Notes under the pieces: model-generated | The model's database searches: none | What the model saw: only the letters and a program-made list of their open reading frames with translations | What the model was told of the DNA's origin: nothing | Made by a program: the position numbers and the translations under genes | Part shown: piece after piece, positions 1 to 16,925 of the stretch | Position numbering within the stretch: position 1 is the first letter of the stretch | How the letters are laid out: the number at the start of each line of letters is the position of its first letter | Source of the DNA: a virus | Virus record (IMG/VR): IMGVR_UViG_3300031578_004030 | Span: 1 to 20,394 of that record | Reading direction: 5' to 3' (one strand) | DNA length: 20,394 bases

Positions 1-324
1 GAGAATCTAGCGGTCGAGGTCGCCATAAAGCGTGCAATGGATGGTACGCTCTACACCTATGTGAAACGGAAGGGTCGCCGGAAGCTCCAGTGGACCTTCG
101 GGCTGTCGCGAAACAAGGGTCTGGAGTTGAGGGCGTTTATCCAGTCGTACTTTGCCTCCAAGATTCTGGTGACCGACCACAATGGACGGAAGTGGATTGG
201 CAACTTTATGAACAACCCTTTTGAGTTTGAAATCGATCGCCGGTCGGCCCCGGCGATCGCTCCGATGCCCCGTGGGGAACGACAACGGATCACTCTTGAA
301 TTTGAGGGGGAGGAGATCACATGA
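1..324 (+). CDS. Small tail-region protein, 3' part (5' end outside window)
   Basis: The reading frame is open from base 1, so the gene probably begins upstream; the first in-window ATG at 37 has no convincing ribosome-binding site. About 107 residues are visible. They are basic and aromatic-rich at first (YVKRKGRRKLQW) and end in short beta-prone segments (RITLEFEGEEIT). I do not recognise the family from sequence. The stop codon overlaps the ATG of the large tail protein (ATGA, 321-324), which indicates translational coupling. Position just before a tail hub gene suggests a small tail-tip, distal-tail or adaptor protein; this is inference from gene order. Confidence 0.7.
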   Translation, partial: ENLAVEVAIKRAMDGTLYTYVKRKGRRKLQWTFGLSRNKGLELRAFIQSYFASKILVTDHNGRKWIGNFMNNPFEFEIDRRSAPAIAPMPRGERQRITLEFEGEEIT

Positions 325-3131
325 GAACCCTGAATGTCGATGCTCTCAACAAGATCGCCACGAAGCTCGGCACCGAGCCAGTGACGATTGTTGAGATTGA
401 CTGGCTTGAAGACGGGGCGCCAGCACTCTACGCAGACCGGACGGTGGGATCAATCCCCGGCAAGATTCACGATTTGGGTGATCTTGACAATGTGATCAAT
501 GTTTCGGACAGCGATAGCTCTCAAGAACTCGACATAACCCTGGATGACACCGATGGAACAATCAAAGCAATCCTCGACGCCAACGACATTCACAAACGCA
601 GCATCCGTGTTTATCAGTGGTTTGAAGGGTTGGACCTTGATGACCGATTCATGCTCTTCGCCGGAAAAATCAGTTCCCCAATCACCTGGAATGAGCGAGA
701 CCGAAGCATCGGCTTCACGATCCTCTCGCAACTCGAAGACAAGGAAATAGGTTTCTCGGCCGAGGAAGGCGACTTTCGGTGGATTCCCAAAGACTTGATT
801 GGCAAAGCCTGGCCGATGATTTTCGGGACGGTCCAAGACGTGCCTGCCTTACAGTTCAACCAGGCTGTCTCTGGAACCACACTCTGTCCAATCGGCAGCG
901 TCATTGGTGAAGAGTACCATAATGCTGTCCCTCTTGGTGGGGCCGATCCCTCTTGGGGTCTAAACATGGGAATGCAAAGCATACAGAAGAGCATGTTGTG
1001 GTGCGCACTCGATGCGTTCCAGCGGGCGGCATTCAAGTGGCCATACAAGATGAATGAGTATACGGCTAAAGCCAATCAGTGTCTTGACCAGATCAATGTG
1101 ATCAATAGCCAGATCAGCCAATCACAGAGTCAGAAAGCAGCCCAAGAATCCTGTGCGACAGCCCAGCGCCAATTGACGATCGACAATGCCAAAGATGGTG
1201 GTTGTAATCCCGTCCGTATCCTCGGCGGCGAAGATTTCCCACAGAATAAAACCATCAGTGTGCAAATCAGTGGGTCGATTCTCATTGGGTACTTCTCGGG
1301 GGACAACTTCCACTACTCCAGTATCGTGAATGAAGACAAGGAAGCCAAAGCGGAGGAAAAGTACAATGCATCACTGGATCACCTTTGTGATGTCCCGGGC
1401 CAAGGCCAATCCTTTGACTTTTCGATGGATGTCCCCTGTGGCTTAGGGAATCAATTCCTCAGTGATAACTGCCGGTGTCGTTTCCATGGGTATCTCATAT
1501 CCACGATCTCACACCAGTCGCGACCCAACATCAATTCGGTCGCCGAACACTTGTGGATTGATTCCGGCAGCCGGGTTACCATTTACAGTGCCGAGAACAT
1601 CACCTATGTCGCATCTATCATTCCCGGGACGGTATTGGCTGTCAAAGCCTACAAGACGTTTGAGGGTGGCGAGCGGCGTCTGGTCAATGTTCCAAGCGAT
1701 CTCTGGTGGGCGGAGACGAAGGACTATGGCCCGATTACGGCAACTCAGATCGTAACGGTGAAGCCGCTGAGTTCCTACGAGGACCAGGGTTGGAGTGACG
1801 ACATCTACGTGACGTACCAGTCTGATGTTGGCCCCCACACTTGTGACATCCTTGAGTATCTCATCGACAACTACACGGACCTGGAATATGATACGACGAG
1901 CTTCACGGCTATTCGATCGAAGCTCGATCCGTTCCCGATGAATTTTCCAATCCTCGATCGGAAGAACACCCTGGAGGTGCTCCAGGAGATCGCCTTCCAG
2001 GCTCGGTGTGCCTTGTGGCTCTCGAACGGCAAGTTCTACATCAAGTACCTGCCAGAAGAGCCTACGAGCGATGAAACTATCACCGTGACTGACCTGGATG
2101 CTGAAGCGGGGGTCGCGCTCGAAATGACTTCCACGGAAGACCTGGTCACGAAGATGATTGTCGAGTGGCGCATCAGTTGGGCAGAGGATGATCCAAACAA
2201 GATCATTCTGCGGCACAACGTTGGTAAGTACGGCACCCAGCAGGAGATGTTCGACATCTACTGCTACAATCAGCCCGACATCGTTCTCAAGGTGGCCACG
2301 TTCTGGTTGATCCGCAAGAGTAACACCTGGAAGAAGGTCCGTTTCAAGACGTATCTTACGAAGCTCAACCTGGAGACGTTCGACACCGTAACGCTGGACT
2401 TTGGTAGCCAGGACTACGTGTCAACGGGCTCCGTGAAGGCGATCGTTGAAGAGGCTGTTTACAACTCGAATGATCGCACGATTGATTTTGTTTGCCTGAC
2501 GCCTGTCAGGTCGGGCGAGATGACGGAGTATCAATTCTTTTGGCCGGCGGCAATTAGCATTTCGGCAACATTTCCAACAGCCGCTGAACGGGAGGCTGGT
2601 TTCGCTGGCGGCGATGGAATCGGGGCGGGTGCCACCGGCGAACTGCCCGTTGGCTTCACGAATCTTGAGGACTGGGGTGATGGTGTAGTCTGGGTCGGAG
2701 GACCCAACGTGGTATTCAGCGGCCATGCGGACTATGGGGACAATACCCCGACTGATGTTGATTTTGAGGCTCAGCAAGTCATCCACCCTGAGACTTACGC
2801 CGAGTTGACAGTCGTGAAGAATCCTAATCCCGACTTGACGCTCAACTATGTGGACCCGATTGACCCGCCGCCCTTGATGGACTATGGCGGGGCCACTTTG
2901 GAGATCGACATCCGTAAGACGGCAATCGTCGACTCGGATAACGAAGGAGTGGTGTCCACCCTGGACACGATCTACAAGAAGATCAATGCGGATGGAAAAC
3001 TCGTTATTGATACCAAGAAGGCTAAGTACGGAGACGATGACCATCCGGAGGGTGAAGTCTTTGACTACCGCTTCGATGACGACGGTGGTGAATGGGGTGC
3101 CGGCACGGCGTTCTTGAAGGGCCCAAGCTAG
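321..3131 (+). CDS. Phage tail hub/tip structural protein (936 aa)
   Basis: Start chosen at ATG 321, preceded by a strong GGAGGAG about 5 nt upstream and overlapping the previous stop. The first ~190 residues (RVYQWFEG, then LFAGKISSPITWNERDRSIGF) resemble the N-terminal part of phage tail-tip proteins of the DUF2163/baseplate-hub type. Residues ~230-320 hold a Gln/Ser-rich probable helical segment (INSQISQSQSQ). Residues ~530-730 look like a hub domain (NTLEVLQEIAFQARCALWLSNGKFYIKYLP). The last ~200 residues are acidic, Gly/Pro-rich and beta-prone, as in host-facing tail-tip domains. Expected role: baseplate or tail-tip assembly, possibly host contact. The phage-structural call is firm; the exact family is not. 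Confidence 0.75.
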   Translation: MRTLNVDALNKIATKLGTEPVTIVEIDWLEDGAPALYADRTVGSIPGKIHDLGDLDNVINVSDSDSSQELDITLDDTDGTIKAILDANDIHKRSIRVYQWFEGLDLDDRFMLFAGKISSPITWNERDRSIGFTILSQLEDKEIGFSAEEGDFRWIPKDLIGKAWPMIFGTVQDVPALQFNQAVSGTTLCPIGSVIGEEYHNAVPLGGADPSWGLNMGMQSIQKSMLWCALDAFQRAAFKWPYKMNEYTAKANQCLDQINVINSQISQSQSQKAAQESCATAQRQLTIDNAKDGGCNPVRILGGEDFPQNKTISVQISGSILIGYFSGDNFHYSSIVNEDKEAKAEEKYNASLDHLCDVPGQGQSFDFSMDVPCGLGNQFLSDNCRCRFHGYLISTISHQSRPNINSVAEHLWIDSGSRVTIYSAENITYVASIIPGTVLAVKAYKTFEGGERRLVNVPSDLWWAETKDYGPITATQIVTVKPLSSYEDQGWSDDIYVTYQSDVGPHTCDILEYLIDNYTDLEYDTTSFTAIRSKLDPFPMNFPILDRKNTLEVLQEIAFQARCALWLSNGKFYIKYLPEEPTSDETITVTDLDAEAGVALEMTSTEDLVTKMIVEWRISWAEDDPNKIILRHNVGKYGTQQEMFDIYCYNQPDIVLKVATFWLIRKSNTWKKVRFKTYLTKLNLETFDTVTLDFGSQDYVSTGSVKAIVEEAVYNSNDRTIDFVCLTPVRSGEMTEYQFFWPAAISISATFPTAAEREAGFAGGDGIGAGATGELPVGFTNLEDWGDGVVWVGGPNVVFSGHADYGDNTPTDVDFEAQQVIHPETYAELTVVKNPNPDLTLNYVDPIDPPPLMDYGGATLEIDIRKTAIVDSDNEGVVSTLDTIYKKINADGKLVIDTKKAKYGDDDHPEGEVFDYRFDDDGGEWGAGTAFLKGPS

Positions 3132-3155
3132 GCACATTTCTGAGGGTGTGAATGA

Positions 3156-3191
3156 AAACACCCCACCCGGCATCTGCCAGGTGGGGTGTTT
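3156..3191. terminator. Strong bidirectional intrinsic terminator
   Basis: A perfect 12-bp stem pairs 3156-3167 with 3180-3191. Part of the 12-nt loop can pair further (GGC 3169-3171 with GCC 3176-3178, loop ATCT). Read rightward the stem ends in TTT and continues CGTTTC; read leftward it ends in TTTT then CATTC, so it can stop transcription both ways. It lies 24 nt after the tail-gene stop and ends 9 nt before the ribosome-binding site of the next gene. Confidence 0.88.
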
Positions 3192-3210
3192 CGTTTCTTG
3201 GGAGACATCT

Positions 3211-3591
3211 ATGAGGCTGAGCAAACGCCAGAAACGGTTTTGGCAATACATGATTCACCAGTTGAAGAAGAATTTTTCACCAGGTGTCCCAGTCGAAGTC
3301 CGAACAAGACCCATAAAGGGTGTCTATGCCGACTGCCTCGGCGTGATGAAATTGGGGCGGATGGTGAAGATCATCATCACCATTGGCAGCACGAATGTAT
3401 GGAAGGTCAAGCAAGACTGTCTCATACATGAGTGGGCTCACGCAATGGAGTGGGAAGCCAATTGGACGGACGATAGTCCGAAGCGGGAGCATGGAGCAAC
3501 ATGGGGCGTCTGGTACGCCCAAATCTACGAGCATCTGATGGACAAGTGCTGGCCCGATATGAAGGAGCGTGGTCTTCTTCGCCAGGATTAA
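3211..3591 (+). CDS. Small HExxH zinc metallopeptidase-like protein (126 aa)
   Basis: Start chosen at ATG 3211, with GGAG at 3201-3204. An upstream in-frame GTG at 3148 is rejected because the added codons run through a terminator hairpin. Residues 73-77 read HEWAH, a zinc-binding HExxH motif with Glu74 as the expected catalytic base. A likely third ligand is His94 in EHGATWG, the spacing and context seen in SprT-like and related small phage metallopeptidases. The first 20 residues are strongly basic. No signal peptide or membrane segment is visible, so it should be cytoplasmic. Family knowledge supports a metal-dependent peptidase fold; the substrate is unknown. It follows the tail genes but sits beyond a terminator, so it may rely on read-through. 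Confidence 0.8.
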   Translation: MRLSKRQKRFWQYMIHQLKKNFSPGVPVEVRTRPIKGVYADCLGVMKLGRMVKIIITIGSTNVWKVKQDCLIHEWAHAMEWEANWTDDSPKREHGATWGVWYAQIYEHLMDKCWPDMKERGLLRQD

Positions 3592-3651: not shown

Positions 3652-4185
3652 TTACGATTGAGGCGGTTGAGCCGCTCCGGATGGAACAGATTCCGGTGAT
3701 CTAAACGGCTCCGGTAACGGCGTTCGTTTTGGGGTAATGCGTACCGGGATCGGTTCCCGCCTCGGGCAGTCTTCGCACACCTCGAATGGGATTTTTCCAT
3801 GCTCGTCGAGTTCGGATTCGGGGTCGCTACATATCGCAACCACCTGGATGCACTCACAAGCCTCCTTGACTACCGTGCTGTACAGTCGCATTCGGCACGA
3901 TTTCCATAGCGGTCGGAAGAGCCATGCATCTTCTGTATCGCGTTCGTACCCCTCAATAGGGCCCGGCGGCTCCCAGTCGTCGGGCCTTTTTTCGTATTGA
4001 ATGGACCCATCCGGTAGGAATTGCCCCTTCTGATAATCAGCCGGCAGGGTGTGTTGCATCATCGCGAGATGCAGTTCAGGCGGGCCCCCGGTGTACACGA
4101 CCCATCCGATTGATGCCAGCCCCTCGGGAGCGATAACATCAGGGATGCCACTTGGTGTCTGTTCTGGGCAGTCTTTACAAGCCAT
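3652..4185 (-). CDS. Cys-rich tandem paralogue A (177 aa, unknown function)
   Basis: Start chosen at ATG 4185: it shares a base with the upstream stop (TGATG) and has GGAGA about 8 nt upstream; an in-frame alternative at 4212 lacks this support. The protein begins MACKDCPEQ. It contains the motif shared with the next two genes (DG-I-Y-K, then WEPP, a GY-R turn, then DAW) and a Cys set C..CEC...C followed by C-x2-CP. The paired cysteines suggest metal binding; no family is recognised. The C-terminal ~35 residues are Pro-rich and probably flexible. It is the last gene of the leftward operon. A rightward terminator-like hairpin lies within its coding sequence. Confidence 0.7.
   Translation of the reverse strand: MACKDCPEQTPSGIPDVIAPEGLASIGWVVYTGGPPELHLAMMQHTLPADYQKGQFLPDGSIQYEKRPDDWEPPGPIEGYERDTEDAWLFRPLWKSCRMRLYSTVVKEACECIQVVAICSDPESELDEHGKIPFEVCEDCPRREPIPVRITPKRTPLPEPFRSPESVPSGAAQPPQS
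3960..3992 (+). terminator. Rightward terminator-like hairpin inside antisense gene
   Basis: On the plus strand 3960-3970 pairs with 3976-3986 (11 bp including two G-U pairs) around the 5-nt loop TCCCA, followed by six T residues at 3987-3992. It would end rightward transcripts that pass the metallopeptidase gene, about 370 nt beyond its stop. It also encodes the KRPDDWEPP segment of the leftward gene, so the structure may be a by-product of coding. Confidence 0.5.
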
Positions 4186-4475
4186 CAAGTCTTCTCCGGG
4201 CAACTCTGACACTGAGGTGGTTGAACTGTGCCGTGCAGGTCACAGTGATACGTGATTTTGGCAGCCCCGCATGCTGAATAGGTGATACTCTGTGTCCGGT
4301 GCCCACAGGCATCCAGGATTGGGAGGAACACCCATGCATCCGGTGACTTTAGGTTGTCGCTCTTCCGCTTGTAGCCAGCGGGCGCCAGGGGAGGTTCCCA
4401 TCCCCGCTTTGGGTAGGCAATCACGCCGTCTTTGAAGATTCGTGGGCGGGCGTGTGTCAGCGGTTGTTCTGGCAT
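4185..4475 (-). CDS. Cys-rich tandem paralogue B (96 aa, unknown function)
   Basis: Start chosen at ATG 4475, giving a 19-nt overlap with the upstream gene; a TTG at 4547 in the same frame would add 24 residues lying wholly inside that gene and is less likely. There is no strong Shine-Dalgarno, so translation is probably coupled. The protein is almost entirely the shared module: DGVIAYPKRGWEPP, GYKRKSDNLKSPDAW, then C-GHR, C, C-DLHG and C-x2-CPE. The C-x2-H-R / C / C-x2-HG / C-x2-C order resembles small zinc-ribbon-like proteins that I associate with Planctomycetota (inference). Metal binding is likely; role unknown. Compared with copies A and C it lacks extra terminal domains and may be the minimal unit. 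Confidence 0.68.
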   Translation of the reverse strand: MPEQPLTHARPRIFKDGVIAYPKRGWEPPLAPAGYKRKSDNLKSPDAWVFLPILDACGHRTQSITYSACGAAKITYHCDLHGTVQPPQCQSCPEKT

Positions 4476-5035
4476 GTGACACACTGGTCCAGTTCGATGT
4501 TCTTCGACTTGCCATTGAACGTGCAGGTCGGGATGACCCGCATGCAATCACAGCTTGGCCGTTTGATCCGCTTGAGTTCACAGTGTTTACACAGGGGTTC
4601 TTTTCGGACCAGAGTCCAAGCGTCCGGACTCTTCAAGTCATCCGATAGCCTGCGATAGCCCACGGGGACCGGCGGCGGCTCCCAGTCGACTTTCTGGTAG
4701 ATGATTGTGCCATCACCCAGAATCTTGGGATGCCCTGGAGAGGGCCTTGTGGGCTCAGGAAGGGGCATCCGGTCACCAACTGGATGGCCCACCGTGTTGA
4801 CTTGAAAGCTCGGTTGAGGGGCCTTCACTGGTTCTTGCTCCGTGCAGCCCTGGCAAGTCTTGCATGTGACCTGCCGTTTGCCGAACCACTTCGCGGGTTC
4901 TTTGATGGCTTGGGCATCTGTGACCGTTCGTGGCCTCGTGGGCGCCCGGCACCAGATTTGGACGCCATCCAGACTCTGCATGGGCCACCGACGCCCACAT
5001 GGTGGCAGATCAGCAATATGCTTCATGTCGGTCAT
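4457..5035 (-). CDS. Cys-rich tandem paralogue C (192 aa, unknown function)
   Basis: Start chosen at ATG 5035, with GGGG six bases upstream; it overlaps the upstream gene by 26 nt. An N-terminal third holds its own cysteine cluster (CKTCQGC). A Pro-rich linker follows (EPTRPSPGHP), then the shared module (DGTIIYQKVDWEPP, GYRRLSDDLKSPDAW) and the C-terminal set C-x2-C, CDC, C and C-x2-C. It resembles paralogue B most closely, sharing the stretch LKSPDAW exactly. Likely a metal-binding soluble protein; function not recognised. The gene is embedded in an overlapping leftward string with copies A and B. Confidence 0.7.
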   Translation of the reverse strand: MTDMKHIADLPPCGRRWPMQSLDGVQIWCRAPTRPRTVTDAQAIKEPAKWFGKRQVTCKTCQGCTEQEPVKAPQPSFQVNTVGHPVGDRMPLPEPTRPSPGHPKILGDGTIIYQKVDWEPPPVPVGYRRLSDDLKSPDAWTLVRKEPLCKHCELKRIKRPSCDCMRVIPTCTFNGKSKNIELDQCVTCQNNR

Positions 5036-6530
5036 TATACACCCCGTGGTAATCAAGCCATTTACTGTGTTCGTCGAGCCACTTGTCTCGCTTCTCTGAG
5101 TTGTCTCTCATTCCACCCTTCTTCTTTGTGTGAAGGTGGAATTCGTCCGATCCAAGTGCGACCCAGTCGGGCTCCGGGAGCGGCGACCAAATCCAACAGC
5201 CAAAACCGGTGCAGCTACCGACGCAACTTCCTTCGCTCGGCCAGCCTTGGCTCCACCAGATGACGGAGAAGTCAGGCCACTCGTCGTATTTACAATTACC
5301 TGGGATTGGCTCGCAGGCACCACCGATGAGGGACTCACAACGCCAACGGTTTCGCCGCTCGGAATAGGTCTGGCTGTAGCTCCTGTTGTTGACTTTGGCT
5401 GTCATTCCTCCAACGTACCAAGTACCATCGGGAGCGATGCGGACTCCTTTCCTATCAGATATGCTGCCATACCTGGAATTGATCCGGTACACATCAGCCG
5501 CCGGCAACACACCATCCGAAGTATCACTGCACTGGTTCAAAGTCCAGTCCCACTTATCGCCGAGCTTGTCCATCGTGGAAGGGTCCCACCAGTCATACCA
5601 TGGCCATTCAGGTAGGGCTTCGCTGTAGCACTCGGCGAAGATGTTGTGATCAGCGGGGTAGCGACCATACAAGCCCAACACTGCTGCACTGTTCTGTGCG
5701 GCGGCAGCGTTCGCACTTGCGATCAGGGGGAGGCCTTGGTTATACCAGAGGTTGAATGTCTCGACCCGCTCTTCTACCTTGTCCTGGTACTCTCTTGCTC
5801 TCTGCCCGTGTGTGCAGATTTGGAACTTGATGGACTGGCACTCAAGCGGCTCGGGGGTTACACCCTGGCATTGTGATTTCCATTGAGCAATGAGGGTGTC
5901 GACCTGTGCTACTTCGCTGTCAACAATGGCTTGGTAGTTTTCCATGCCTTTGCCGATGGCCGGCAACTTGTTGAAGAAGGTGAGGAGGTTGCCGATGTCC
6001 GCATGCGCCGAATCCCAAGTGTCACAGATGAGGTTGTACTTCGGATCGTTGTTGCCGCTCGGCGTGGGGTAGTAGGCTCCACGGTATTCTACCTCGTGGC
6101 AATCCATACCAATACAGATGGCACATGGGTCCTTCGAGTAGACCCCGGTGGATTTGCCCTCGGATTCCGCAGCGTTGACTGCTGTGTGACTGAAGATGCA
6201 GACCATCTGATCCTCCTCGTCCGGCTCCGTTTCGCAATCACACCAGGCATCATCCATCTGGTCATTGATCTCATCAATGATCGCTTGCTTCCAGAGCACG
6301 AGTTCCTCCAAGAAACTGATGTCCGGGCAAGTCTCTTTGAGCTTGTCCCGCATCTCCGTGACATCATTGACGGACCATAGGTGTGGGTCCGTAACTTCGT
6401 CGATCGGATCAATCGGCGGACAATTGCTGGCTCCCACAGGGGGACCCTGGAGAATCTCATTCACGTCCTGAATGAGCGAGTTCCAATCCTCGATAGAGAA
6501 CGGTTTGTCTGGGTCGTAGTATTCGGACAA
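5010..6530 (-). CDS. Large Cys/Trp-rich protein, possibly virion-associated (506 aa)
   Basis: The only start that fits is TTG 6530, preceded by GAGGAG at optimal spacing immediately after the exonuclease stop; the next ATG would remove the conserved-looking N terminus (FSIEDWNSLIQDVNEIL). The protein has about 21 cysteines, many tryptophans in the second half (WPWYDWWDPS; VIWWSQGW), a Cys/Gly cluster SCVGSCTGFGCW near residue 450, and a charged C-terminal tail. Residues ~185-225 look helical. No signal peptide or membrane segment is seen, and I recognise no family. The layout of a helical N terminus followed by Gly/Trp-rich repeats resembles tail-fibre or other structural proteins, but it lies in the replication operon, so that role is a guess. 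Cysteines may bind metal or form disulfides. Confidence 0.72.
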   Translation of the reverse strand: MSEYYDPDKPFSIEDWNSLIQDVNEILQGPPVGASNCPPIDPIDEVTDPHLWSVNDVTEMRDKLKETCPDISFLEELVLWKQAIIDEINDQMDDAWCDCETEPDEEDQMVCIFSHTAVNAAESEGKSTGVYSKDPCAICIGMDCHEVEYRGAYYPTPSGNNDPKYNLICDTWDSAHADIGNLLTFFNKLPAIGKGMENYQAIVDSEVAQVDTLIAQWKSQCQGVTPEPLECQSIKFQICTHGQRAREYQDKVEERVETFNLWYNQGLPLIASANAAAAQNSAAVLGLYGRYPADHNIFAECYSEALPEWPWYDWWDPSTMDKLGDKWDWTLNQCSDTSDGVLPAADVYRINSRYGSISDRKGVRIAPDGTWYVGGMTAKVNNRSYSQTYSERRNRWRCESLIGGACEPIPGNCKYDEWPDFSVIWWSQGWPSEGSCVGSCTGFGCWIWSPLPEPDWVALGSDEFHLHTKKKGGMRDNSEKRDKWLDEHSKWLDYHGVYNDRHEAYC

Positions 6531-6542: not shown

Positions 6543-7160
6543 TTAGAACAAGTCGACATGGACTAATGCACGATACACTTCTGCCTCTGCCAAGGCGTCA
6601 GACAGGGCATCGTGTGGAGTCTCGTTGACGATCCCGAAATGTTTACAGAGATACTTGAGACCCACATAGTTGAACGGGGCGGGTTCGCCCGCGAAGGCTG
6701 CTTTATCCTTGAGACTCAAAGCGAAGGTCATACTGTCTCGTGGATGGAAGTGGAAGATGTGGTCGAACAACTTGGTGCCCAACCAGGCTTTGCCAAAGGA
6801 AGACTCGAAAGCCCAGTTGTGGGCCATTGGTGTGAGCTTCTTACCAACCGGTAGGTCGAGTGCCTCGAACCATTCCACCAGAAGATCGGCGACCTTCTCG
6901 TTGGAAGGTGCGTTGAGCATCAAGTCAGCCAGGTTGAGCCCGTGGATAACCAAGGCTTCCCTGTTGGCCCGCTCCGGATACTTCGGCGCGATGTTGTGAT
7001 AGAATGGCCGAAGCTCCTTGTTTGGGTGGAGATCAGCATCCAGAGGCACAACGCCAATCTGGATGATTTCGTGATAACCCGCCGTGTCGCCGGTTGTCTC
7101 AAAGTCGATGGCAACCATCAGATTACCATTGAGGTGGACCAGCCCATTGTATGTGCGCAC
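6543..7160 (-). CDS. DEDDh-family 3'-5' exonuclease (205 aa)
   Basis: Start chosen at GTG 7160: GAGGAG lies 7 nt upstream and overlaps the end of the kinase gene; the longer frame upstream is inside that gene. Motif ExoI is clear (VAIDFETTG; Asp19, Glu21). ExoII reads AHNWAFESSF, with Glu119 where the family usually has Asp. ExoIII is HDALSDA (His183, Asp188). This is the DnaQ-like fold of DNA polymerase epsilon subunits, RNase T and phage exonucleases, which remove 3'-terminal nucleotides using two metal ions. Length fits a single-domain enzyme. In an operon with primase-helicase and dNMP kinase it probably serves phage DNA replication or processing. No polymerase is in the window. Confidence 0.88.
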   Translation of the reverse strand: MRTYNGLVHLNGNLMVAIDFETTGDTAGYHEIIQIGVVPLDADLHPNKELRPFYHNIAPKYPERANREALVIHGLNLADLMLNAPSNEKVADLLVEWFEALDLPVGKKLTPMAHNWAFESSFGKAWLGTKLFDHIFHFHPRDSMTFALSLKDKAAFAGEPAPFNYVGLKYLCKHFGIVNETPHDALSDALAEAEVYRALVHVDLF

Positions 7161-7174
7161 AGTGTTACTCCTCG
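7161..7174 (-). promoter_or_regulatory. Ribosome-binding site deciding a GTG start
   Basis: Leftward sequence CGAGGAGTAACACT precedes GTG 7160 and contains the kinase stop codon TAA. The same ten bases, GGAGTAACAC, occur before the kinase ATG (7927-7936). Confidence 0.72.
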
Positions 7175-7926
7175 AACTTGAGACCGGCGGCTTTGTAGAC
7201 GGCCAGGACTTCCTTGTGACTTGGCATCCGTTGGACTGCCAGGGCTTCATTGATTTCTTGCTGGGACCGTTTGAGGGCATCCAAGCTGCCTGGCGCCCGG
7301 TAGATATTCAGTCCGGTAACTCGCGGTGGGGATGTCTTTATGATGTGCGCCGCATACCTGGCAGCCCATTGGCGAAGATTCTCGATGCCGCTACAAGTCA
7401 CAGGGGTCGGAAGATCACCAATCACGTTGTCCCAGTCGGTGTGGTAGATCAACGCCAAGTCGGCAACGGTCATCTTCGGGCCATACCCGTCACGGACGAT
7501 CTTGATCAAGTGGCCGCCGGTATCCTGGATGGCCTTTATCTCGTTCGGGAAGCGGACATCCGAGATCACGATCACGTCCAACCCGTGGTCTGTCTTCAAC
7601 AGGTAATCGACCCAAGTGAGATCATAGACCTGCTCGCGGACAGCGGGCGTCCCGAATTGAACCCAGACCTCTATAGGTGTCATATCGAGGGCGGGCAGCT
7701 TCACATCACGTTCATGCTCGTTGGCGGGGACGTTGTAGTAGGCTTCGTCTTGGACACCAGCCCAACCATAGAGATCGTGGGTGATCTCCTTCAGCTTTGA
7801 GGCGAAGCCCTTACGGCCCACCCTGAGCTTCGGTGCCATCTCCTGAAGGGTGTCGATGAGGGCGTTGGCGAAAGTGTCTTTTCCGGTACGGCTATAGTGG
7901 CCAAGACCAATGATGAGAGGATGCAT
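7165..7926 (-). CDS. Phage deoxynucleoside monophosphate kinase-like protein (253 aa)
   Basis: Start ATG 7926 has GGAG six bases upstream. The N terminus carries a P-loop of the phage dNMP kinase type (GHYSRTGKDTFA, with Asp after Lys). Further family signatures are VWVQFGTPAVREQ and DVRFPNE around residues 86-128. Family enzymes, typified by T4 gene 1, phosphorylate dNMPs to dNDPs with ATP to feed phage DNA synthesis. The C-terminal ~60 residues are helical and less recognisable. It is a soluble protein. Placement between the primase-helicase and the exonuclease supports a nucleotide-supply role. Related nucleoside or adenylate-type kinases are the alternative. Confidence 0.83.
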   Translation of the reverse strand: MHPLIIGLGHYSRTGKDTFANALIDTLQEMAPKLRVGRKGFASKLKEITHDLYGWAGVQDEAYYNVPANEHERDVKLPALDMTPIEVWVQFGTPAVREQVYDLTWVDYLLKTDHGLDVIVISDVRFPNEIKAIQDTGGHLIKIVRDGYGPKMTVADLALIYHTDWDNVIGDLPTPVTCSGIENLRQWAARYAAHIIKTSPPRVTGLNIYRAPGSLDALKRSQQEINEALAVQRMPSHKEVLAVYKAAGLKFEE

Positions 7927-13666: not shown

Positions 13667-13884
13667 AAAACACCAGCCGAGCACAGAGGTCCCTGATGAA
13701 GGGGTTGAGTTGGGAGAGCTTCTCCTACTTCCTCACGATACTCATCACCTACTGGTATCTCCACAGCTTCAGTACCAGCGTTAAGCTCACCAGCACCCTC
13801 TTCATCATCAAGATCATCTTCTTCTATTTCCACGAACGCATCTGGCACCAGATCAAGTGGGGAAAGATCACTGGCAAGGAATAA
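13663..13884 (+). CDS. DUF2061-family small membrane protein (73 aa)
   Basis: Start at ATG 13663, overlapping the upstream stop; an in-frame ATG at 13597 lies inside the upstream gene. The protein matches the DUF2061 pattern: basic N terminus with RSLMKGLSWE, a first hydrophobic span FLTILITYWYL, a second span LFIIKIIFFYF, and the family-typical ending HERIWHQIKWG. Members are short predicted inner-membrane proteins of unknown function, so full length is normal here. They are mainly known from cellular genomes; presence in a phage-like operon is unusual. Confidence 0.85.
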   Translation: MKNTSRAQRSLMKGLSWESFSYFLTILITYWYLHSFSTSVKLTSTLFIIKIIFFYFHERIWHQIKWGKITGKE

Positions 13885-13886
13885 CC

Positions 13887-16800
13887 ATGTCTCAAGTTCT
13901 TGACATCAAACTCATCCACGAAACCCAAAGCGGGAGTCTGGTTCGGAGCCCTGCTAAGATCGAGATTGCTGACGGTCGCATCTTCTTCCTGAAGTCCGCC
14001 TTTGCTTTGAAGGACGAGATCAAATCAATGGCTGGCTCCCGATGGCACGGCTACGATGACGAGAACCCCCACAAAATTTGGTCCGTCACGGATTGCCCAC
14101 GGAACCACTTCCAACTCGGCTACCTCATGGGTGAGGATGTCTACGAGTGGTTCGAGCGTGATCTGATTCGTCACGAGTACCGCCAATACCAACTGAAGGG
14201 CGTCGATACTGATCCGATGCCCCACCAGTTCGATTTGGCGGACTCCGGCCTCACTTACCACTACCAAATCTGGGGTGCCGAGATGGGCACGGGCAAAGGT
14301 GGCCTACCTAGTACGAAGGTTGCTACTCCAACTGGCTGGACCACTTTGGGTGAAATTCAGGTGGGTGACGAAGTCATTAACCCTGAAGGTGGGACAACCA
14401 AGGTTAAAGGCGTTTACCACCGGGGCCGGATGGAGATGTTTCGAGTAACGTTTTCGGATAACTCATCCACTGTGTGTAGTCGGGACCATTTGTGGAACGT
14501 GCGTTCGGCGTGCCGGAAGCATCGTGGGATGTCTTGCGAAGTGTTGGAGTTGCAGGAGATTCTTTCGCGTGGGCTCAAGGGAGTGGCGAACGGCAATGCT
14601 AAACACTACATCCCGATGGTGAACTCGGTTGAATATCATAAGGCCCCGTTGCCGGTACATCCGTACCTCTTAGGGTACATCCTTGGTAATGGTGGATTGA
14701 GCGGGTATACCAATATCCTCTCTATTCCGGACACCGAGACCGTTGAACGTCTTAATTCGATGATGTTGACCCCTCTCAAGCAAAAGAAGAACTCACAGTA
14801 CGACTACATTATCAAGGACGATGGGGTCAATCGCTTCATTGAGGAAGCTGGCCTAAGGGGTCTAAGATCACACGAAAAGCATCTTACTACTGAATACCTG
14901 TTTAGTGCAGTCGAGAATCGGATTGCGATTCTCCAAGGATTGTGTGACTCCGATGGCCATGCAGTTCAGACTTCGGGAGTCGAGTATTCAACCACCTCAC
15001 CTGACCTATGCAGCAGCTTTGTCTCACTGGTGCAATCCCTTGGTGGAACATGCCATGTTAGTGAAAGCCGGCCTACCTATACCTACAAAGGTGAGAAACG
15101 GGTTGGACGCTTGGCCTATCGAATCAACGCTTCGTTCCCGTCCACAATTGTCCCTTTTTGGTTGAGTCGAAAGGCTTCACAGTACACGGTGCCTACAAAG
15201 TATGAGCCCACCCGAGCCATTGTGAAAGTGGAATCAATCGGTGAGGAAGAGTGCATCTGTATCGCTGTCGAGGCAGCCAATCAGCTTTATGTGACTGATG
15301 ACTTTATCGTCACCCACAATACTCTGGCGGCCCAGATGGTGATCGAGCACTCTGGTGTCGACTGGTGGTATTGGGTTGGCCCAGCCAGGTCGCTGCCCAA
15401 CATGAAACGAGAGTTTCGACTCTGGGGCTTCGATGAATCAAAGATTCGTATCGATTTCATGTCTTACGAGAAACTCAAACGAGTTGTGGACGAGTGGTCA
15501 CCGGATGGCCCGTTGCCGAGAGGCTTGATCTGTGATGAGTCCAGCCGCTGCAAGACATACAGCAGCCAACGATCGGTAGCCACCCAACTCTTGGCGGATC
15601 GTATCCGGGCGAAGCATCGCTTCGATGGTTACATCATCGAGATGTCGGGAACCCCGAGTCCGAAGAGGCCAACCGACTGGTGGAGCCAATGCGAGATTGC
15701 CTGGCCCGGCTTCCTGCGGGAAGGCAGCGTGAAGGCGTTGGAACAGCGGCTGGCCTTCATGGTCCAGAAAGAGTTTGACTCGGGCACATTCTGGAAAGCC
15801 TCCGGCTGGCGAGACGACGAACGCAAGTGTGCCGTTTGTGGTGAGTTTGAAGAGCACCCGTGCCACACGATGGACAACTTCATGGGGGAGATGGAGGAAT
15901 CGGATGAAGAGTTCCACAAGTTCGAGCCCTCGAAAAATGAAGTCGGCTTCATGTACGAGCGTCTCAAAGGGCTGGTGGTCATCAAGCACAAGAAGGACTG
16001 CCTCTCACTGCCCGACAAGCGTTATCGCCGAGTCATCTGCAAACCGAAGGCGTCTGTTCTTCGCGTTGCCAAAGCTCTGGTTGATGCTGCTGAGAATGCC
16101 GTCACCGGCATGACAATGCTGAGGGAACTCAGCGACGGTTTCCAGTACCGTGAAGAGCCTGATGGCAAGATTCCCTGCAACCATTGCAAGGATGCCTGTG
16201 GTGAAGTCGACCAGTGGTTTATTCCGGGCGAAGAGAATCGCACGTTCTCCAACATCGACATGCTCGAAAAAGAATTGGTGGCCCGCTTGGAGAAGCGGAG
16301 AGTCAAGTGTCCGAAGTGCAAGGGCACGGGCGAAGTCATCAAGATGAAGCGGTATGCACGCGAGGTGCCATGTCCCAAGGAGGGGGCTCTGCGAGACCTG
16401 CTCGAAGAAAACGAAGAGACCGGCCGCCTGGTGATCTTTGCCGGGTTCACCGGAAGCGTTGATCGTTGCTGTAACATCTGCCGCAAAGAAGGCTGGTCGG
16501 TTGTCCGCTGTGACGGACGTGGCTACCAGGTGACTCTGGCGGATGGATCAACGGTCACCGGTGCTGAAGCTCTCGACTACTGGGCTGACTTGGAGAACAA
16601 CCCCCGGGTTGCTTTCGTGGCCCACCCGGAGTCCGGTGGTATGTCACTTACGCTGGTAGAGGCCAGGATGGCAGTCTACTGGTCCAATAGCTTCAAACCT
16701 GAGTATCGCACTCAGTCTGAGGATCGTATCCACCGTAAGGGGATGGATGAGAACCTCGGGTGTATGATTGTTGATCTGATCCACCTGCCTACCGACGACC

Positions 16801-16925
16801 GTGCTCTGACAATCATCCGGGAGAACAGGAAGCTCGAACTGATGACGATGGGTGAGGTTTTCCCAGACTTTAACCCTGATGAGGAACCTGTAGATGAAAG
16901 CGCGATGGGGGGCGCCCAGCCATGA
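13887..16925 (+). CDS. SNF2/SF2-type helicase interrupted by an intein (1012 aa precursor)
   Basis: Start ATG 13887 follows AAGGA at 6 nt, three bases after the DUF2061 stop; an ATG at 13857 lies inside that gene. The extein is a superfamily 2 helicase: Walker A MGTGK (133-137) joined after splicing to TLAAQ (479 on), motif II DESS (550-553), motif III MSGTPS, motif V GGMSLT, and motif VI QSEDRIHRKG (943-952). Removing residues 138-478 leaves about 671 residues. Two cysteine clusters look like zinc ribbons: C648-x2-C651 with C659, and C764-x2-C767 with C808-x2-C811. Family members use ATP to translocate on or remodel DNA; in phages they act in replication, recombination or repair. The next gene starts inside its stop codon. 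Confidence 0.9.
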   Translation: MSQVLDIKLIHETQSGSLVRSPAKIEIADGRIFFLKSAFALKDEIKSMAGSRWHGYDDENPHKIWSVTDCPRNHFQLGYLMGEDVYEWFERDLIRHEYRQYQLKGVDTDPMPHQFDLADSGLTYHYQIWGAEMGTGKGGLPSTKVATPTGWTTLGEIQVGDEVINPEGGTTKVKGVYHRGRMEMFRVTFSDNSSTVCSRDHLWNVRSACRKHRGMSCEVLELQEILSRGLKGVANGNAKHYIPMVNSVEYHKAPLPVHPYLLGYILGNGGLSGYTNILSIPDTETVERLNSMMLTPLKQKKNSQYDYIIKDDGVNRFIEEAGLRGLRSHEKHLTTEYLFSAVENRIAILQGLCDSDGHAVQTSGVEYSTTSPDLCSSFVSLVQSLGGTCHVSESRPTYTYKGEKRVGRLAYRINASFPSTIVPFWLSRKASQYTVPTKYEPTRAIVKVESIGEEECICIAVEAANQLYVTDDFIVTHNTLAAQMVIEHSGVDWWYWVGPARSLPNMKREFRLWGFDESKIRIDFMSYEKLKRVVDEWSPDGPLPRGLICDESSRCKTYSSQRSVATQLLADRIRAKHRFDGYIIEMSGTPSPKRPTDWWSQCEIAWPGFLREGSVKALEQRLAFMVQKEFDSGTFWKASGWRDDERKCAVCGEFEEHPCHTMDNFMGEMEESDEEFHKFEPSKNEVGFMYERLKGLVVIKHKKDCLSLPDKRYRRVICKPKASVLRVAKALVDAAENAVTGMTMLRELSDGFQYREEPDGKIPCNHCKDACGEVDQWFIPGEENRTFSNIDMLEKELVARLEKRRVKCPKCKGTGEVIKMKRYAREVPCPKEGALRDLLEENEETGRLVIFAGFTGSVDRCCNICRKEGWSVVRCDGRGYQVTLADGSTVTGAEALDYWADLENNPRVAFVAHPESGGMSLTLVEARMAVYWSNSFKPEYRTQSEDRIHRKGMDENLGCMIVDLIHLPTDDRALTIIRENRKLELMTMGEVFPDFNPDEEPVDESAMGGAQP
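14298..15320 (+). mobile_element. Class 3-type intein with LAGLIDADG endonuclease domain (about 341 aa)
   Basis: The insert splits the helicase P-loop between Lys137 and Thr479. It begins Gly-Gly-Leu-Pro, so it lacks the usual Cys or Ser at position 1; block A continues ATPTGWTTLGEIQVGDEV. Block B ends in RDHLW, with Trp203 two residues after His201. Block F is CICIAV with Cys458 at its fourth position. Block G is IVTHN, with Thr476, His477 and Asn478, followed by Thr+1. Trp/Cys/Thr at these places is the signature of class 3 inteins, which use the block F cysteine as first nucleophile. Two LAGLIDADG motifs are visible: LLGYILGNG (261-269) and LQGLCDSDG (349-357). The first has Asn268 where a catalytic acid is expected. 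Codon use looks more relaxed than in the extein (TTA, CTA, AGA). Confidence 0.9.

Follow-up and report, generated by a model that had tools for sequence, protein, structure and literature searches.

The window, that is, the whole stretch of 20,394 bases analysed here (IMG/VR virus record IMGVR_UViG_3300031578_004030), carries three small overlapping genes, C, B and A, which follow the gene of a 506-aa protein, FIB (Table 1). The end of FIB extends 26 nt into C, the C/B overlap is 19 nt, and B and A have one base in common (TGATG). The ATG start of B at 4475 was preferred to the TTG at 4547, because the B gene of the related locus L092 overlaps its C gene equally briefly. Next to the array lies a SprT-like metalloprotease-type gene (3148–3591, +), convergent with A, which adjoins the array in L003, L019, L024 and L092, too.

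Table 1. Module genes, their parts and the neighbouring genes in the window
Feature	Position	Strand	Remarks
Protein A	3652–4185	−	177 aa; ATG start; MACKDCP CxxC at N terminus, GWVVYTGGPPE segment, module, Pro-rich tail
Protein B	4185–4475	−	96 aa; ATG start; module alone
Protein C	4457–5035	−	192 aa; ATG start; cysteine unit at N terminus, linker, module
Module of A	3736–4050	−	DGxIxY, DWEPP, GYxR, AWxFxP, five Cys; from alignments
Module of B	4188–4475	−	From alignment
Module of C	4460–4750	−	From alignment
C-x2-C at N terminus of A	4168–4179	−	Shared by A-types and by the single-copy proteins L006 and L020
Extra N-terminal cysteine unit of C	4829–5008	−	CGRR...DGVQIWC...VTCKTC; from alignment
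Shine-Dalgarno GGAGAAG	4191–4197	−	Within the end of B, upstream of the ATG of A
FIB, 506-aa protein	5010–6530	−	Upstream of array; conserved N terminus of about 95 aa, much more variable remainder
936-aa tail-region protein	321–3131	+	Convergent with array; neighbourhood landmark
DnaQ-like exonuclease (RNase_T)	6543–7280	−	Same strand as array

The proteins share the motifs DGxIxYxK, WEPP, GYxR and DAW and a cysteine block, and a preliminary description had read them as three diverged tandem copies of a Cys-rich module. Single pairwise BLASTP comparisons gave E values of 4e-19 (B–C), 6e-13 (A–B) and 8e-9 (A–C). A test profile, built from the modules of other phages alone with the window sequences left out, was run against the 399 window ORFs of at least 30 aa and matched exactly A, B and C (E 1e-32, 2e-26 and 3e-20) and none of the other 396. 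The real proteins scored 67–107 bits, while their shuffled versions (3,000) stayed at or below 11.3 bits. Thus, profile similarity among the three is readily detected, the module reading is confirmed by the independent profile, the shuffles and BLASTP, and the paralogy of A, B and C is supported. A stretch of identical bases common to A and C, formerly counted as 15, is indeed shared and comprises 16 bases (3964–3979 = 4673–4688); it encodes the conserved DWEPP peptide and therefore says little on the recency of the copies.

Module anatomy and the putative zinc site

The core module spans some 95 aa and its cysteines follow the pattern C1-x2-R...C2...C3...C4-x2-C5, in which C1 and C3 are single cysteines and C4-x2-C5 is the only knuckle across all modules. 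Among 90 distinct modules C1, C3, C4 and C5 never vary (100%), and conservation is 99% for two glycines, 97% for one proline and 94% for the arginine of CxxR; C2 is missing from some A-types. The A-types and several single-copy proteins start with a cysteine pair, usually C-x2-C, and pairs related to that of A occur in L007 and L050. A second, N-terminal cysteine unit of protein C had been missed in the preliminary description. Extra units of this kind are found in C-types and some B-types, one each in window C, L003, L014 and L021 and two in L004; the unit of C aligns with all the others, and those of L003, L004 and L014 were recovered by HMM as well. The dN/dS ratio was 0.08–0.35 in pairs with finite dS (several dS values were near saturation), and the module family is under purifying selection.

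Metal binding had been suggested from the cysteine spacing, and the invariance of four cysteines in every module supports a pattern of the metal-binding type. A, B and C probably bind zinc, with a single structural zinc most likely coordinated by C1, C3, C4 and C5; we infer zinc, rather than Fe-S or disulfides, at these cysteines. A redox protein, in which the cysteines would bind iron, carry an Fe-S cluster or be joined in disulfides, appears improbable. The presence of four or five cysteines would suit it, and so would the resemblance of the FhuF C-terminal 2Fe-2S domain (PF11575) to a short C-x2-C-containing stretch of A, but this weak match covered 9 residues, was seen in A only and reached 14.8 bits at a cut-off of 20.5 bits, so membership in FhuF_C was rejected. 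Moreover, the C-x2-R / single C / C-x2-C spacing together with the hairpins seems to resemble structural zinc sites, and partner redox genes were not recognised within the window.

The AF2 models of A (pLDDT 81.8, with 90 residues at 90 or above) and B (pLDDT 82.6, pTM 0.66) are fairly confident and predict short hairpins that precede a longer one, with a small C-terminal helix adjacent to the CxxC. Foldseek gave no match at E ≤ 0.001 for either model against the PDB or for the A model against BFVD, the best VIA Z being 2.2; for such predicted models, a missing fold match would not amount to proof of a new fold. The module family had no match in Pfam, PHROGs, NCBIfam and the PDB sequences, and was not found in the literature on Planctomycetota phages and small phage zinc proteins. 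The generic Cys4 structural zinc sites of the zinc-ribbon/knuckle class are like the module in having four invariant cysteines with C-x2-C, beta hairpins and a small size. They differ in that the module has one C-x2-C knuckle, its first half consisting of C-x2-R and the lone C3, and its N-terminal DGxIxY/WEPP/GYxR part found no counterpart among these sites and no sequence or fold match. A classical zinc ribbon with two CxxC-type knuckles was rejected, as the module contains the C4-x2-C5 knuckle alone. The best PDB sequence match was the ZZ zinc finger of CBP (PDB 2n1a, 1tot), whose E value of 0.29 is insignificant, and membership in this class was rejected, too. ZZ fingers bind two zincs with a ligand set unlike that of the module. 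A Cys motif associated with planctomycete glycosyltransferases was considered as a lead only and not confirmed.

Spread of the family and its neighbourhood

A profile made from the three window copies found 7 loci, to which iterated profiles added others. A better bait was the 936-aa tail-region protein next to the array, which yielded 138 IMG/VR loci, of which 80 were kept. The junction set comprised 74 loci with the tail gene plus EXO or PRIM, in which a few contigs fetched twice were counted. Module genes were present in 64 of the 74 junctions (one in 34, two in 28 and three in 2). A clear copy was absent from 10, so the lineage does not strictly depend on the module gene, and in two of these ten ‘negative’ loci, L160 and L165, the refined profile detected degenerate cysteine units. 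Degenerate relatives, with cysteine units and no WEPP, lie in L160 (13737–14108, −), L165 (15413–16135, −; two units) and L124 (15318–15818, −). Scans of viral contigs with the single proteins C and FIB, tblastn of C and A against INPHARED and a search of genome contigs with the module profile gave no match. This previously uncatalogued family is an almost constant mark of a large lineage of phages that apparently infect Planctomycetota; its profile can annotate dozens of unknown genes, and the module protein, being small and easy to express, lends itself to structural work and metal analysis.

In bacterial assemblies, the tail-protein profile detected relatives only in four Planctomycetota MAGs, two of which are Pirellulales. 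The Planctomycetota MAG contigs L051 and L052 keep the order t95-TAIL-EXO-dNMK-PRIM-ParB and lack the module, so Planctomycetota are the probable hosts of the lineage and possible hosts of the window’s own phage. As bacterial contigs that preserve the phage tail-to-ParB order, they also suggest that the lineage may include temperate members.

The usual site of the array is the meeting point of the tail-gene block and the PRIM-dNMK-EXO block. Of 60 junctions, 52 have the array on the EXO/PRIM (replication) strand and 7 have it on the tail strand. Assignment to the tail operon as a structural gene was rejected, since only these seven arrays share the tail strand and the window array is on the replication strand. 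FIB stands upstream of the array on the same strand in 30 junctions, in 22 of which the open frames of FIB and the first module gene overlap, and in G408 a FIB-module pair occurs together elsewhere in the genome. The gene upstream of the module is SPFH in L006, L020 and L050, ClpP in L007 and the exonuclease in L026, L029 and L031. An invariable coupling of the array to FIB was not upheld by these counts: other upstream genes, and FIB or the array on the tail strand, indicate that the partnership is not obligatory, and the SPFH, ClpP and exonuclease cases suggest that coupling is general, FIB being merely the commonest partner.

The same arrangement bears on a tail-tip or virion accessory function, in which late module proteins would assemble on the particle with the tail protein and with FIB as an adhesin. 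The array usually adjoins the tail gene, and in L006, L007, L011, L012, L020 and L050 it follows the tail-operon genes directly on the tail strand; FIB homologs are adhesin-like in their conserved N terminus and variable rest, and in 9 junctions FIB, apart from the array, follows the tail gene on the tail strand. We nevertheless consider this function rather unlikely, since the great majority of arrays are on the replication strand, the copies of L033 and L044 adjoin PRIM/ParB, and CxxC units are a typical feature of zinc sites in the cytoplasm.

SPFH/Band_7-like genes are located directly after the tail gene in L006 (4828–5367), L011 (5129–5695) and L020 (7441–7986), these three having been scanned with Pfam (E 5e-13 to 8e-24), and also in L012, L044 and L050. 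In L007, the slot directly after the tail gene is occupied by a ClpP-like gene.

Evolution of the array

In a tree of 91 rows, window A grouped with L161 (the L014 contig), L089, L090, L091 and L092 (support 100/90), its orthologs being those of L003, L014, L019/L091, L024/L090 and L092. Window B joined its own orthologs from other phages (99/92), and window C fell together with L092 and L019/L091 (89/87), the weakest support because C forms a long branch. The C-B-A array recurs in L092, along with the SprT-like and 506-aa genes. A, B and C can thus be read as old paralogs within a family of small, one-domain proteins specific to phages.

The copies had earlier been proposed to arise by in-line duplication, as the N terminus of A resembles the C terminus of B; the two ends have only C-x2-C-P-E in common (BLASTP E 0.07). 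A recent local tandem duplication without wider meaning would account for the tandem order of the genes and the 16 bases in common, but it is contradicted by the separate orthologs of each paralog and by the C-B-A array of L092, and has very little probability left. Furthermore, the N-terminal CxxC of A is kept far beyond the window phage and also occurs in single-copy genes, so the likeness of the two ends is an old family feature and not a duplication scar.

The B-type protein of L003 is a fusion: its first 64 residues match the front of L092 C at 57% identity, and its module matches L092 B at 65%. This alignment suggests that the array can contract by recombination between copies. The third module gene of L027’s phage (L079, 6338–6805, −) lies at a distant site, directly downstream of a homolog of the 506-aa protein.

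The profile search formerly proposed across phage and Planctomycetota genomes recovered the family in phages; the module and cysteine-unit profiles, run against 392 Planctomycetota genomes, returned weak matches only (the first pass scored some candidates per genome), the best module match running antisense through a thiC-like gene. A cellular origin of the module was therefore not found.

Possible roles of the module proteins and other observations

An early host-takeover or regulatory protein of zinc-finger-like character might bind host RNA polymerase, nucleic acid or another host factor, or counter a defence system. Small diverging arrays of one to three paralogs, mostly in the replication-strand operon, would agree with such a role, as would the very basic N-terminal extensions of L011 (+20) and L012 (+17). 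The modules themselves, however, are not consistently basic (net charge −9 to +8, mean +2), their gene stays at one fixed locus in most of these phages, which sets it apart from typical accessory anti-defence genes, and Pfam and PHROGs gave no match; this role is possible but seems unlikely.

An intracellular structural-zinc adaptor is the most likely reading overall, with about an even chance of being right, followed closely by the tail-accessory and host-takeover roles. It draws on the profile matches, the invariant cysteines, the dN/dS values, the presence in most junctions and the prevailing replication strand, and further on the frequent upstream or overlapping position of FIB, the G408 pair, the predicted hairpins and helix, the clades and the L003 fusion. 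The domain would comprise several short beta hairpins (DGxIxY; GYxR...WxFxP) and, after them, the cysteine unit C1-x2-R...C2...C3...C4-x2-C5. The unit is re-used in three ways, namely in tandem genes (C-type, B-type, A-type), as additional copies inside a single protein and in fusions. The adaptor role as such is put forward tentatively, at somewhat less than an even chance. A, B and C might act as intracellular adaptor or assembly proteins, made in a fixed ratio through translational coupling from the operon of the PRIM-dNMK-EXO side; they might bind each other via a conserved aromatic/proline surface, the same surface could bind the FIB product where FIB is the upstream gene, and the divergent ends could give each paralog a separate partner. 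A more far-reaching proposal, which we regard as doubtful, combines a near-core, lineage-marking family with a new small zinc fold, a C-B-A paralog array that gains, loses and fuses modules, and a modular adaptor set that would act on Planctomycetota hosts or on the phage’s own variable upstream protein.

Elsewhere in the window, an intein-like insert (GGLPSTKVATPTGW...FIVTHN) separates EMGTGK from TLAAQ in a SNF2-like helicase ORF (13857–16925, +) and sits exactly at the Walker A motif; the homolog in L014 (11779–13731) is without the insert. The first residue of this insert is apparently Gly, not Cys or Ser. An intein-like insert (CFSGDTEIITDEG...NGVFTSNC) is also present in a primase-helicase ORF of L006 (7351–10986, −).
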